DNA from: Piscinibacter sp.
GTDB taxonomy: Bacteria; Pseudomonadota; Gammaproteobacteria; Burkholderiales; Burkholderiaceae_C
NCBI GenBank assembly: GCA_017983795.1
Contig: JAGOAS010000002.1
Location: 248,001-312,000, forward strand
Direction of reading: 5' to 3'
DNA length: 64,000 bases
The notes under the pieces are model-generated. The model was not told the origin of the DNA. It did no database searches and saw nothing but the letters and a program-made list of their open reading frames with translations. Shown here in pieces: positions 1 to 63,415 of the stretch; positions within the stretch are counted from its first letter, which is position 1, and every line of letters begins with the position of its first letter. The position numbers were made by a program, and so were the translations under genes.

Positions 1-249
1 GACCTGCATCCCGGACTGCCTTCGATGCGCTGCGTGGGCTACCGCCAGGCCTGGGAAGCGCTGGATGCCGACAACCTCGCCGCCCTGCCCGAGCGCGGCA
101 TCGCCGCCACGCGCCAACTCGCCAAGCGCCAGCTCACCTGGCTGCGCGGCATGCCGCGCCGCGAGACGCTGGCCTGCGACGAAGCCGGCGCGATAGCCCG
201 CGTGGTGGAGCGCGCGATGCGCCACGCCGACGCGCTGCTGAGGTCATGA
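1..249 (+). CDS. miaA: tRNA dimethylallyltransferase MiaA, C-terminal end (5' truncated by window)
   Basis: The open frame runs in from base 1, so only the last 82 codons are present. The remaining residues contain the conserved MiaA C-terminal pattern ([11 protein letters not shown], then [15 protein letters not shown]). MiaA transfers a dimethylallyl group to A37 of tRNAs that read codons starting with U. The catalytic P-loop half lies outside the window. The stop codon overlaps the ATG of the following ABC ATPase by 4 nt (ATGA), so the two genes are translationally coupled. Confidence 0.93.
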
Positions 250-905
250 GCGACGCGATGCTGCGCCTGCAGGGTCTCGCCAAGCACTACGGCGCCACGC
301 CGGTGTTCAGCGGCGTCGATCTCGAACTGCGCGCCGGCGAATTCGTCGCGGTGCTCGGCGAATCGGGTGTGGGCAAGTCCACCCTGCTCAACGGCATCGC
401 CGGGCTCGACACGTTGGATGCCGGCCGCGTGCAACTGGCGGGCCGCGAAGTGACGACGATGAACGACGAGGAGCTTGCGCTGCTGCGCCGGCGCGACATC
501 GGCTTCGTCTTCCAGGCCTTCCACGTGCTGCCGCACCTGACGGTGGCGCAGAACGCGGCCCTGCCCTTGCTGCTGCTGCACAGCCCCGACGACGCCCGCG
601 TGGCGCGCGTGCTCGACGACGTCGGCCTGGCCGGCTTCGGCGAACGCCTGCCGCAGACGCTCTCCGGCGGCCAGCTGCAGCGCGTGGCGATCGCGCGGGC
701 GCTGGTGCACGCGCCCAGGCTGCTGCTCGCCGACGAGCCCACCGGCAACCTCGACCCCGGCAACGCCGAGCGCGTGATGGACACGCTCGCCCTGCAGACG
801 CGCGCACACGGCGCCGCCTGCCTGCTGGTGACGCACTCGCGCTCCGCCGCCGCGCGCGCCGACCGCGTGCTGGTGCTGCGGCCCGACGGACTGCATCGCG
901 CCTGA
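246..905 (+). CDS. ABC transporter ATP-binding protein (LolD/YbbA-like)
   Basis: This 219-residue single ATPase domain belongs to the MacB/LolD/FtsE class. Walker A is GESGVGKST (residues 38-46), the Q-loop Gln is about residue 90, the signature is LSGGQ (139-143) followed by [10 protein letters not shown], and Walker B is [12 protein letters not shown] (159-170). It most likely powers the large FtsX-fold permease encoded from 1354, with the lipocalin-like protein as the exported or periplasmic partner; ATPase, permease and AttH-like genes form a recurrent proteobacterial trio. It starts inside the miaA stop. A 59-bp gap containing a sigma-28-type promoter separates it from the next gene. Confidence 0.9.
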
Positions 906-910
906 AGCCC

Positions 911-937
911 TCAAGTTTCCGGCCGGCGTGCCGATAA
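911..937 (+). promoter_or_regulatory. sigma-28 (FliA) type promoter upstream of the receiver gene
   Basis: TCAAGTT at 911-917 and GCCGATAA at 930-937 are separated by exactly 12 nt. This matches the flagellar sigma factor consensus (TAAAGTTT-N11-GCCGATAA in E. coli, TCAAG variants in other proteobacteria). It lies in the only intergenic gap of the operon, with the receiver ATG 28 nt downstream. Initiation would fall near 945. The match is seen directly; use by FliA is inferred. Confidence 0.75.
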
Positions 938-964: not shown

Positions 965-1357
965 ATGCCCCGCATCCTCGTCGTCGAAGACCAGGCCGAC
1001 ATCCGCCGGCTCATCCGCTGGTCGCTGGAAGAACTGCAAGGCGCCGAGATCTTCGAGGCCGCCAACGGCCGCCTCGGGCTGGACGCGGTGCGCGCGCTGC
1101 GCCCCGACCTCGTGCTGCTCGACGTGATGATGCCCGGCGATCTCGACGGCTTCCAGGTCTGCGACACGCTGCGCAAGGAGCCGCCGTTCGCCTCGCTGCC
1201 CATCGTGATGCTGACCGCGCGCGCGCAAGCCGCTGACCGTGAAGCCGGCGCACGCGCCGGCGCCGACGACTACCTGTTCAAGCCCTTCAGCCCGGCGGTG
1301 CTGGTGCAGACCGTGCAGCGCCTGCTCGCGGCCCGCGCGCCACAATCGGCGCGGTGA
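965..1357 (+). CDS. stand-alone response regulator receiver (CheY-like)
   Basis: The 130-residue protein is a single receiver domain with no output domain. The acidic pocket is E8/D9, the phospho-acceptor is D53 (LLDVMMPGD), the switch Thr is T84 (VMLTAR) and the conserved Lys is K106 (LFKPFSP). Such proteins act through protein contacts, as CheY or SpoIIR-like relays do. Its stop codon overlaps the GTG start of the permease gene, so expression is coupled to the exporter. A receiver gene placed between the ATPase and permease genes is unusual, and its own sigma-28-like promoter suggests co-expression with motility genes. No histidine kinase is nearby and the partner is unknown. Confidence 0.9.
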   Translation: MPRILVVEDQADIRRLIRWSLEELQGAEIFEAANGRLGLDAVRALRPDLVLLDVMMPGDLDGFQVCDTLRKEPPFASLPIVMLTARAQAADREAGARAGADDYLFKPFSPAVLVQTVQRLLAARAPQSAR

Positions 1358-3894
1358 ACGCCGCCGCGCCGAGCACACCTCCGCCCTCCCCGCTGCCCGC
1401 CCTGCTGCGCCAGGTCTCCTGGCCCTGGCTGCTGCACCAGCCGCTGCGTCACGCCGTGGCGATGCTGGCGGTGGCCCTGGGCGTGGCGCTGGCCTTCTCG
1501 GTGCACCTGATCAACGAATCGGCGCTCGGCGAGTTCAGCGCCGCGGTGCGGCAGGTCAACGGCCAGCCCGACTTCGAGCTGCGCGCGCAGCGCGAAGGCT
1601 TCGACGAAGCGCTGTTCGCACGTGTCGCCACGCAGCCCGGCGTGGCGCTGGCCAGCGCCGTGATCGAGCTCGACGCGCAGGCGCTCGACGCCAGCGGGCA
1701 GCCGGTGCCGCTGCGCGTGATCGGGCTGGATGCGCTGGCCGCCGCCGCGCTCACGCCGGCGCTGCTGCCGCGGCCCGCCGAGGGCGCCGATCGACTCGCC
1801 GTGATCGACCCGGCGGCCGCCTTCCTCAACGCCGCGGCGGCACGCCGGCTCGGCGAGCCCGCCATGCTGCGGCTGCGCGCGGCGCGCGGCAGCACGAGTT
1901 TCGCGGTGCGCGGCAGCGTGCTGGCCGACGGCCCGCCGCTCGCGGTGCTCGACCTCGCCGGCGCGCAGCAAGCCTTCGGCTGGACCGGCCGCGTGAGCCG
2001 CATCGATGTGCGCCTCGTGCCCGGCACCGACCGCGAGGCGCTGCTGCGCGCGCTGCAGCTGCCGGCGGGCGTGCGCGCCGCGGCGCCGGACGAGTCCGCA
2101 CAGCGTGTCTCCAACGTCTCGCGCGCCTACCGCGTCAACCTCACGGTGCTGGCGCTGGTGGCGCTGTTCACCGGCGCCTTCCTGGTGTTCTCCATCCTTT
2201 CGCTGTCGGTGGCGCGGCGTGCGCCGCAGCTGGCGCTGCTCGGCGTGCTGGGCCTGGGTGCGCGCGATCGGCTCGCCTGGATGCTGGCCGAATCGGCGCT
2301 GATCGGGCTGGCCGGCAGCGTGCTCGGCCTGGCGCTCGGCACCGGCCTCGCGGCGCTGGCGCTGCGCCTGCTCGCCGGTGATCTCGGCGGCGCCTACTTC
2401 CCCGGCGTCGCGCCGCGCTTGCAGTTCAGCACCACGGCAGCGCTGGTCTACGGCGCGCTCGGCGTGGCCGTCGCGGTGGCGGGCGGCTGGCTGCCGGCGC
2501 GCAGCGCGCAGCGCATCGCGCCGGCACAGGCCCTCAAGGGGCTGGGCGAGAGCCACCCGCAGCACAGCCCGGCATGGCTGGGCCCGCTGCTGCTCGCGCT
2601 CGGCGTGCTGCTGGCCCAGGTGCCGCCCGTGGCCGGCATCCCGCTGGCTGCCTACGCCTCGGTGGCCTGCCTGCTGCTCGGCGGCATCGCCTGCGTGCCG
2701 GCCGCGGTGGCGTTGCTGCTGCGTCGCACGCGTTCGCCACGCCACGCACTCGTGCTGCTGGCAGTGCAGCGCGCGCGCCACGAACGCAGCAGCGCCACCA
2801 TCGCGGTGTCGGGCGTGGTGGCGAGCCTGGCGCTCGCGGTGGCGCTGACGGTGATGGTCACCAGCTTCCGCGAAGCCGTGACGCAATGGCTGGACGACGT
2901 GCTGCCGGCCGACCTCTACGCCCGCGCCGCGGCAGGCGGCGGCAACGACACCGCCTGGGTCGACGACGCGCTGGTCGCGCAGTTGCGCGCCCTGCCCGGC
3001 GTGGCGCGCGTCGAGGGCCAGCGTGTCGCCGCCATCCAGCTCGATGCGAGCCGGCCCACGGTGGCGCTGGTGGCCAAGCGCGTCGCCGACGATCCGGCAC
3101 GGCGCCTGCCGCTGCTAGGCGAACTGCTGCCGGCGCGCGAGGGCCTGCTCTCGGTGTACGTCAGCGAACCCGCCGCCAGCTTGTACGGCCTGCGCGCCGG
3201 CGCACGCTTCGAGCTGCCGCTGCCCGACGGACAGCGCGAGCGCGCCTTCGTGCGCGCGGTGTGGCGCGACTACGCCCGCCAGCACGGCGCCGTGACGCTC
3301 GATGCGGCCGACTATCGCCGCCTCACCGGCGACCTGCGCCTCAACGATCTGGCGCTCTGGCTCGCGCCCGGCGCCGACGCGGCCGCCGTGCAGGCACAGG
3401 TGCGCGCGCTCGCCGGGCCCGACGCGCCGCTCGAATTCGCCACGGTCGGCGAGCTGCGTGCGCTCTCGCTGCGCATCTTCGACCGCAGCTTCGCGGTGAC
3501 CTACTGGCTGCAGGCGGTGGCCATCGCCATCGGCCTGGCCGGCATCGCCGCGAGCTTCTCGGCGCAGGTGCTGGCGCGCCGGCGCGAGTTCGGCCTGCTC
3601 GCCCACCTCGGCCTGACGCGCGCGCAGGTGCTCGCGGTGGTGGCCGGCGAAGGCGCACTGTGGAGCGGCGTCGGCGTGCTGCTGGGCCTGGCGCTGGGCA
3701 TTGCGGTCAGCGCGGTGCTGGTGCACGTGGTCAACCCGCAGAGCTTCCACTGGACCATGGAGCTGCGCCTGCCCTGGGCACGCCTCGCGCTGCTCGCCGC
3801 CGCGATGGCCGCAGCCGGCACGCTGACCGCGTGGTGGGCCGGCCGCGCGGCCGGCGCGAAGCAGGCGGCGCTGGCGGTGAAGGAGGATTGGTGA
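1354..3894 (+). CDS. FtsX-family ABC transporter permease (large, duplicated)
   Basis: The 846-residue protein has an N-terminal membrane anchor (about residues 30-50), a long extracytoplasmic stretch, three TM helices around 255-380, further helices around 405-490, a second extracytoplasmic domain, and three C-terminal TM helices around 715-840. This is the double-FtsX layout of LolC/E- or YbbP-like permeases. The GTG start is set by overlap with the receiver stop (GTGA). The 3' end overlaps the lipocalin-like gene by one base (TGATG). Partnering with the ATPase at 246 is inferred. The substrate is unknown; lipoproteins, lipids or hydrophobic molecules are plausible. Confidence 0.88.
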   Translation: MNAAAPSTPPPSPLPALLRQVSWPWLLHQPLRHAVAMLAVALGVALAFSVHLINESALGEFSAAVRQVNGQPDFELRAQREGFDEALFARVATQPGVALASAVIELDAQALDASGQPVPLRVIGLDALAAAALTPALLPRPAEGADRLAVIDPAAAFLNAAAARRLGEPAMLRLRAARGSTSFAVRGSVLADGPPLAVLDLAGAQQAFGWTGRVSRIDVRLVPGTDREALLRALQLPAGVRAAAPDESAQRVSNVSRAYRVNLTVLALVALFTGAFLVFSILSLSVARRAPQLALLGVLGLGARDRLAWMLAESALIGLAGSVLGLALGTGLAALALRLLAGDLGGAYFPGVAPRLQFSTTAALVYGALGVAVAVAGGWLPARSAQRIAPAQALKGLGESHPQHSPAWLGPLLLALGVLLAQVPPVAGIPLAAYASVACLLLGGIACVPAAVALLLRRTRSPRHALVLLAVQRARHERSSATIAVSGVVASLALAVALTVMVTSFREAVTQWLDDVLPADLYARAAAGGGNDTAWVDDALVAQLRALPGVARVEGQRVAAIQLDASRPTVALVAKRVADDPARRLPLLGELLPAREGLLSVYVSEPAASLYGLRAGARFELPLPDGQRERAFVRAVWRDYARQHGAVTLDAADYRRLTGDLRLNDLALWLAPGADAAAVQAQVRALAGPDAPLEFATVGELRALSLRIFDRSFAVTYWLQAVAIAIGLAGIAASFSAQVLARRREFGLLAHLGLTRAQVLAVVAGEGALWSGVGVLLGLALGIAVSAVLVHVVNPQSFHWTMELRLPWARLALLAAAMAAAGTLTAWWAGRAAGAKQAALAVKEDW

Positions 3895-4982
3895 TGCGAC
3901 GCCGGCCCTTCGTCGGCGTGCTGCTCGCGCTCGGCGCCTTGCCGCTGGCGGCACAGTCGGCCCCGGTGCTACGCGGCCGCGCGCTGCAGTTCCCGCGCGA
4001 CCACGGCTCGCACCCCGATGCGCGCACCGAGTGGTGGTACGCCACCGGCTGGCTGGCCGCGCCGGGCGAGGCCGAGCCACGCTACGGCTTCCAAGTGACC
4101 TTCTTCCGCTCGCGCACCGACGTCGCGGCGAACCACCCGAGCCGCTTCGCCGCCACGCAGCTCGTCTTCGCGCACACGGCGCTCACCGACCTGGCAGCCA
4201 AGCGAGCGCGCCACGACCAGCGCATCGCCCGCGCCGGCTTCGGCGTGGCCGAGGCGGCCGAAGACGACACGCGCCTCGTGCTGCGCGGCTGGCGCTTGGC
4301 GCGCAGCGGGCCGCCCGAGGCGAGCGTCTACCGCGCGAGCATCGCCAGCGACGCCGCCGGCTTCGCGCTCGAGCTCGAACTCGCCGCCACGCAGCCGCTG
4401 CTGCTGCAAGGCGAAGCCGGCTTCTCGCGCAAGGGCCCGCGCCCCGAGCAGGCCAGCCACTACTACAGCCAGCCGCAGCTCGCCGTGCGCGGCACGCTGA
4501 CACTCGACGGCCGCGCGTTAGCCCTGCAGGGCCGCGCCTGGCTGGATCACGAATGGAGCGAGACGATCCTCGCCGCCGAGGCGGTGGGCTGGGACTGGAT
4601 CGGCATCAACCTCGCCGACGGCAGCGCCCTCACCGCCTTCCGCCTGCGCCGCGCTGATGGCAGCACGCTGTGGGCCGGCGGCAGCCTGCGCCGGCCGGGC
4701 GAAACCGCGCGCGCCTTCGGCCCCGACGAAGTGCGCTTCGAGCCGCTGGCGCGCTGGACCAGCCCGGCCTCGCGCGCCACCTACCCGATCGAGTGGCGCG
4801 TGAGCACGCCCGCCGGCACGCAGCGCGTGCGCGCCCTGCTGCACGACCAGGAGCTCGACAGCCGCGCCAGCACGGGCGCGATCTACTGGGAGGGCCTGTC
4901 GGAGCTGCTGGCCGAGGACGGCCGGCGCCTCGGCCTGGGTTACTTGGAGATGACGGGTTATGCGACACCCCTGCGGCTCTGA
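3894..4982 (+). CDS. AttH/CrtC-family lipocalin-like protein (carotenoid 1,2-hydratase family)
   Basis: The 362-residue protein has a short signal-like N terminus (VGVLLALGALPLAAQSA) and the family signature DHGSHPDARTEWWYATGWL early in the mature part. Later family-type stretches include WLDHEWSE and DWIGINL. AttH-like proteins are double-lipocalin beta-barrels commonly encoded next to an ATPase/FtsX permease pair; only some members are true carotenoid hydratases. Here it probably handles a hydrophobic ligand exported by the adjacent transporter. ATG at 3894 was chosen because it follows an AAGGAGG Shine-Dalgarno and overlaps the permease stop. Carotenoid chemistry is not supported by anything nearby. 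Confidence 0.85.
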   Translation: MRRRPFVGVLLALGALPLAAQSAPVLRGRALQFPRDHGSHPDARTEWWYATGWLAAPGEAEPRYGFQVTFFRSRTDVAANHPSRFAATQLVFAHTALTDLAAKRARHDQRIARAGFGVAEAAEDDTRLVLRGWRLARSGPPEASVYRASIASDAAGFALELELAATQPLLLQGEAGFSRKGPRPEQASHYYSQPQLAVRGTLTLDGRALALQGRAWLDHEWSETILAAEAVGWDWIGINLADGSALTAFRLRRADGSTLWAGGSLRRPGETARAFGPDEVRFEPLARWTSPASRATYPIEWRVSTPAGTQRVRALLHDQELDSRASTGAIYWEGLSELLAEDGRRLGLGYLEMTGYATPLRL

Positions 4983-63388: not shown

Positions 63389-63415
63389 TCAAGTTGCACC
63401 GCATCGGGCCGAAAG
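63389..63415 (+). promoter_or_regulatory. sigma-28-like promoter upstream of the LapA-like adhesin
   Basis: TCAAGTT (63389-63395) and GCCGAAAG (63408-63415) are separated by 12 nt, the same arrangement as the better match at 911-937. The -35 element is identical to that site and the -10 differs at two of eight positions. Initiation near 63423 would leave a leader of about 175 nt before the adhesin ATG. The rest of the 242-bp gap shows no other signal. FliA use is inferred. Confidence 0.55.

Follow-up and report, generated by a model that had tools for sequence, protein, structure and literature searches.

A predicted sigma-28 promoter before a stand-alone receiver gene of Piscinibacter, and a possible partner in a PhnD-type sensor kinase encoded elsewhere

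In a 64,000-nucleotide stretch of Piscinibacter DNA (referred to as the window), a box resembling the promoters of the flagellar sigma factor sigma-28 (FliA) precedes the gene of a stand-alone receiver, which is itself surrounded by the genes of an ABC exporter. This raises the question of whether the box is a true sigma-28 promoter and, if so, whether it serves the exporter, the receiver or neither.

The box and the operon that holds it

The box (TCAAGTTTCCGGCCGGCGTGCCGATAA, with coordinates found exact on re-reading of the sequence) has the layout TCAAGTTT-N11-GCCGATAA and ends 27 nt before the receiver ATG. The transcriptional start site of the predicted promoter would be expected at about position 944–945. 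The first-pass annotation had placed it in the sole gap of an otherwise coupled operon, and the gene coordinates confirmed this: the box is intergenic, in a 59-nt gap between the ABC stop codon (905) and the receiver ATG (965), and the miaA/ABC, receiver/FtsX and FtsX/CrtC junctions each overlap by 1–4 nt (Table 1), the receiver/FtsX overlap also being present in the related genome G001. Inspection by eye revealed no clear Shine-Dalgarno sequence before the receiver. Compared with the E. coli tar site as given in an excerpt of PMC4183435 (TAAAGTTTCCCCCCTCCTTGCCGATAAC), the box is identical at 15 of 16 positions, with equal spacing.

Pfam also bore out the earlier description of the downstream genes as a stand-alone receiver, in which Response_reg was the only domain, followed by an FtsX-type permease with MacB_PCD. 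The receiver carries the acidic pair E8/D9, D53, T84 and K106 (by eye), and the CrtC/Lipocalin_9 protein at the end of the operon is the one that the first-pass annotation had called AttH-like. For the ABC ATPase, every match in an NCBIfam search fell below its cut-off. Because there is no gap between receiver, FtsX and CrtC, read-through from the receiver into the last two genes is likely, and both are probably co-transcribed with the receiver and carried along as passengers.

Table 1. Features of the window around the predicted promoter, with a second, weaker box-like site
Feature	Position in window	Strand	Evidence or detail
miaA 3′ end (IPP transferase)	1..249	+	Pfam IPPT, 41.4 bits; ABC start at 246 overlaps
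ABC transporter ATPase (FtsE/LolD/MacB type), upstream of box	246..905	+	Pfam ABC_tran
Sigma-28 type promoter box (predicted)	911-937	+	–35 TCAAGTTT, 911-918; spacer 11; –10 GCCGATAA, 930-937
Stand-alone receiver, 130 aa	965..1357	+	Pfam Response_reg only, 100.9 bits
FtsX-type permease with MacB-like periplasmic part	1354..3894	+	Pfam FtsX (2 stretches), MacB_PCD
CrtC / Lipocalin_9 protein	3894..4982	+	Pfam CrtC 195.6 bits, Lipocalin_9 134.3 bits
Second, weaker box-like site, TCAAGTTGCACCGCATCGGGCCGAAAG	63389-63415	+	3 mismatches to the full box

A chance match was ruled out in four ways. No match to the box appeared in 100 shuffles of the window, and the pattern TNAAGTTT-N11-GCCGATAA occurred once in the 4.24 Mb genome and not at all in the reversed control. 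When up to three mismatches were allowed, the whole genome yielded 22 sites versus 6 for the reversed control, the window box being the only site with fewer than two mismatches. Finally, base composition, taken from 105 kb of the window's genome, predicts 8e-5 full matches per genome.

Sigma-28 core sites in genome, genus and family

The genome of the window encodes fliA (274 bits; cut-off 189.6), located in a flagellar region together with FHIPEP (FlhA), MotB, MotA and a CheY-like receiver. Like the window receiver, this CheY-like gene (L155 18152-18547) has a FliA-type box, TCAACTTT-N11-CCCGATAA, which lies at the end of the motB-like gene and ends 28 nt before the start codon used. The window receiver nevertheless does not look like a close relative of CheY: against the CheY model (E. 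coli-type) it scored only 66 bits, under the cut-off of 189, and in a tree of 23 chosen receivers it was placed far from the CheY of another genus member (CheY_G002).

Searching eight genomes of the genus with the core pattern TCAAG-N15-CCGATA revealed 65 sites, versus 8 for the reversed control, and eight of the sites were in the window's genome, where composition predicts about 0.5 per genome. We examined 63 of the 65, the other two being repeats of an identical 40-nt stretch. Genes 3′ of these sites were called from start codons and GC3 only, which picked the wrong reading frame in some cases (L195, L198, L161 and L249 among them; L195, L198 and L249 were corrected separately), and by this crude call the chosen start lay 0–75 nt downstream of the core site in 54 of the 63. 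Grouped by similarity of the downstream proteins, with Pfam run on one protein per main group, the targets were HD-GYP, HDOD and chemoreceptor-like proteins (7 sites each), a small lipoprotein-like protein without Pfam match (6), MotA, FliS (with L195 counted) and carbonic anhydrase (4 each), and FliD and a CheY-like protein (1 each). The core box stands before fliS and an HD-GYP gene in the window's own genome, and before motA, fliD and chemoreceptor genes in its relatives.

Among 150 genomes of the family, those with fliA (n=111) held a mean of 4.59 core sites and those without (n=39) a mean of 1.05 (Mann-Whitney p 2.6e-9; raw counts, uncorrected for kinship and genome size). The reversed control in the same genomes gave means of 1.14 and 0.87, respectively (Mann-Whitney p 0.40). 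Since fliA is present, the core precedes flagellar genes and the number of core sites tracks fliA, the window box is very probably a sigma-28 promoter. The comparison in turn provides TCAAG-N15-CCGATA as a working core of sigma-28 promoters in the genus, along with a list of candidate regulon genes.

The box is not, however, a model member of this class. The first-pass annotation had it match the FliA consensus at essentially every informative position, which holds against the E. coli consensus but not against the sites of the genus, where its matrix score of 24.8 bits ranks 36th against 58 others (median 26.4) and is therefore middling. Most genus sites have TCAAGTC or TCAAGCC as their –35 element; of the 58 other sites, 45 carry C at position 7 and one carries T, and the base before the –10 element is mostly G. 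The TTT of the –35 element in the window is thus E. coli-like and atypical for the genus.

Three groups of genes behind core boxes were recorded in their own right. A eukaryotic-type carbonic anhydrase follows the core box in four genus genomes (L191 1006-2164, to which the Pfam assignment applies; L199; L163; L167). The small lipoprotein-like protein, of about 125 aa, follows it in six (L187 936-1367; L202; L239; L170; L181; L182) and is a candidate motility protein. A free single-cache periplasmic protein (Cache_3-Cache_2) is found behind the core box in G001 and G003 (L192 920-1501; L175) and may be a soluble protein that binds ligands for chemoreceptors.

Recurrence of the box with the receiver and with PhnD-kinase genes

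A receiver of more than 70% identity was found in four of the eight genus genomes, namely that of the window, G001, G003 and G005, the last with a broken reading frame; the window and G001 receivers are 77% identical. Outside the genus, 299 family genomes (a draw without G005, with 14 candidates scored per genome) held no receiver match above 61%. Absence of the box before orthologous receivers had been named at the outset as grounds for giving up the promoter, and in all four receiver-bearing genomes a core box precedes the receiver unit. It stands directly before the receiver in the window's genome and in G005 (37 nt). In G001 and G003, which are near copies and were counted as one, it stands 30 nt before a PhnD gene that is the first of a PhnD-kinase-receiver-FtsX-CrtC series. 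Together with the presence of fliA and the core class, this recurrence supports the earlier proposal of a sigma-28 type promoter before a non-flagellar receiver. In the four genus genomes lacking the receiver, the exporter contig was free of core boxes.

The sequence around these sites was compared by aligning them at the box, for which chance identity is about 29% by composition. Agreement at 11 of the 16 element positions is by construction, the sites having been picked by the core pattern; window and G001 were identical at 12/16 element, 8/11 spacer, 18/40 upstream and 12/35 downstream positions, and window and G005 at 12/16, 2/11, 14/40 and 14/35, respectively. The telling point is that each receiver unit has such a site before it though the flanks hardly align. 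The similar spacers of window and G001 speak for common descent.

The genes behind the G001 box encode a Phosphonate-bd protein (PF12974) and then a HisKA/HATPase kinase with PAS domains (Pfam), and the receiver gene comes immediately after this kinase gene in both G001 and G003. In the window, where the receiver has ABC and FtsX genes as neighbours, neither PhnD nor kinase adjoins. The same genome does carry a PhnD-kinase pair on another contig (C32; Pfam), preceded by a box, TCAAGGATCCGGCTGCGATGCCGATA, at a distance from PhnD of 4–46 nt according to which start codon is taken. Around this pair, no receiver match was found within the 12 kb read and no exporter adjoins. Identity between C32 and G001 amounts to 70–73% for PhnD and 55–58% for the kinase (77% for the receiver), and as the C32 pair is less like its G001 counterpart than the receiver is, it may be a paralogue.

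PhnD is present in three of the eight genus genomes, with a core box in 3/3; none was found in G005, which is 77% complete. Across 200 family genomes, PhnD at E <= 1e-40 occurred in 20, and a core box preceded it in two, both of this genus; at the 18 loci from other genera, none lay within 300 nt. Twelve of the latter (all but L223–L228) were read further. Kinase followed PhnD in 12/12, a receiver directly adjoined the pair in three (L276, L280, L283) and was divergent in L287, weaker receiver matches (34–41%) followed in L284–L286, and five of the twelve had no receiver match. The tree of 23 receivers comprised those of the window, G001 and G003, a paralogue from contig C43 of the window's genome, four PhnD-near receivers, 14 other receivers and one CheY, the G005 receiver being left out because of its broken frame. 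The window receiver grouped with those of G001 and G003 (99/95), and the receivers that lie next to PhnD in L280, L283 and L287 were placed elsewhere. Hence the link between receiver and PhnD-kinase pair is firm in G001 and G003, and only suggestive beyond them.

In a genome of another genus (G118), a core box (L283 1344-1369, + strand; G118:C26:240343-240368) was observed 70 nt upstream of a further stand-alone receiver, which is followed by an EAL-domain gene and has a receiver-PhnD-kinase unit alongside. This neighbourhood is a hint that PhnD-type sensors are linked to c-di-GMP.

The box, its recurrence and the gene orders are read directly from the sequence. The account of them that we favour, and hold to be probable by a modest measure, is that a sigma-28 promoter would put the receiver into the motility regulon, the receiver being the displaced partner of a PhnD-PAS kinase two-component system. 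Somewhat more tentatively, and at slightly under even chances, the sensor and receiver halves may have been split while each kept its sigma-28 promoter. It would then be the flagellar sigma factor, rather than linkage in an operon, that pairs them and confines the PhnD-type response to swimming cells. In such a scheme, for which we infer the use of FliA, the pairing of the receiver with the C32 kinase, phosphotransfer, a ligand and a target, FliA set free late in flagellar assembly would lead to transcription of both halves, and transcription would probably continue into FtsX and CrtC. PhnD and kinase would sense a small, perhaps anionic, ligand and phosphate would be passed to the receiver. 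As the receiver has no output domain, it would then act through contact with a further protein, one involved in motility or in c-di-GMP signalling.

Other readings, and likeness to known systems

The receiver might instead be an orphan that, under sigma-28, now serves another kinase, either CheA or the kinase near its C43 paralogue, with the C32 pair as an unrelated member of the regulon. The greater divergence of the C32 pair relative to the receiver is in keeping with this, as are the boxed receiver of G005, where no PhnD gene was found, and contig C43 itself, which holds both the receiver paralogue (59% identity) and a PAS kinase. Moreover, the orphan receiver VemR is phosphorylated by CheA or other kinases (PMC9218911, in excerpt). 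We nevertheless consider an orphan rather unlikely, at perhaps one chance in four, since in G001 and G003 the kinase directly precedes the receiver, and since the box is found both at PhnD units (in all three genus genomes that have one) and at receiver units. The C43 paralogue was also considered as a bearer of the box in its own right and rejected, its contig being without a core box.

The first-pass annotation had read the box as motility-linked control of an export or signalling module. Were export its purpose, the promoter would mainly increase the amounts of FtsX and of the lipocalin-like protein when cells swim, and the receiver would be an adjunct. Given the overlaps between the genes, FtsX and CrtC should both lie on a transcript that starts at the box. 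The ABC-FtsX-CrtC operon is, however, widespread in Burkholderiales without the receiver. Among 80 named exporter loci, two have the receiver (L084, L092) and both have the box, whereas none of the 78 others showed a core box in the stretch examined; these stretches are unequal, 74 of the 80 having at least 1 kb before FtsX, with the ABC gene found within 4.5 kb in 58. In addition, the ATPase gene lies upstream of the box, and at C32 a similar box precedes PhnD where no exporter adjoins. The exporter is thus disfavoured as the cause of the box, control of export as such was not supported, and we regard a promoter kept mainly for export as improbable; the operon looks like the host of the box, not its reason.

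A further neighbour of the exporter was examined as well. An ODP-type MBL protein (PF19583) is encoded directly after the ABC gene in all seven other genus genomes (L147 794-1561 in G001; L149–L153); among the named loci, 11 of 80 also have it at more than 45% identity. It has been lost from this place in the window's genome, which holds one weak match elsewhere (29.7 bits; cut-off 27.2). ODP is an MBL-fold family, and in Treponema one of its members senses oxygen for chemotaxis (PMC7666581, in excerpt). As cause of the box it was rejected, since the four ODP-bearing genus genomes without the receiver show no core box on the contig.

That the site is inert or due to chance, with no productive use by FliA, is very improbable. 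In E. coli, 30 of the 52 FliA sites are intragenic, most of them without detectable RNA (PMC4183435, in excerpt), but the box here stands between genes, has a start codon 27 nt further on and is unique in its genome, and it recurs before the receiver unit in 4/4 genomes.

The box, the PhnD-kinase pair and the receiver each have parallels in known systems. Sigma-28 control of non-flagellar genes is already known: the E. coli FliA regulon, as described in the excerpt of PMC4183435, uses a box and spacing near-identical to those of the window and has targets outside the flagellar apparatus, such as modABC, ycgR and flxA. The present case differs in what is targeted: a free receiver in the window and a PhnD-type sensor kinase at other loci, with FliA dependence being a prediction. 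In TtrS/ThsS, the input to a histidine kinase comes from a PhnD-like periplasmic domain, which in TtrS senses a small ligand, as would be the case in the Piscinibacter unit (PMC5408782, in excerpt). The PhnD-like part of TtrS is a domain of the kinase, whereas here PhnD has a gene of its own, the receiver lacks an output domain and a sigma-28 box stands before the unit. VemR, finally, resembles the window receiver as a stand-alone, motility-linked receiver without output domain, and it acts by contact; its kinase is CheA, and the excerpt of PMC9218911 reports no sigma-28 box.

A search of the literature at hand found no published account of such a sensor kinase and receiver under FliA in Piscinibacter, and a split sensor/receiver pair would, if confirmed, be an unusual twist on sigma-28 control. 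If the displaced-partner reading is true, the motility regulon of the Burkholderiales genus Piscinibacter would gain a sensor kinase that works with a periplasmic binding protein, as well as a free receiver. The comparison also suggests that a promoter can remain with a signalling module despite gains and losses of genes inside an unrelated operon.
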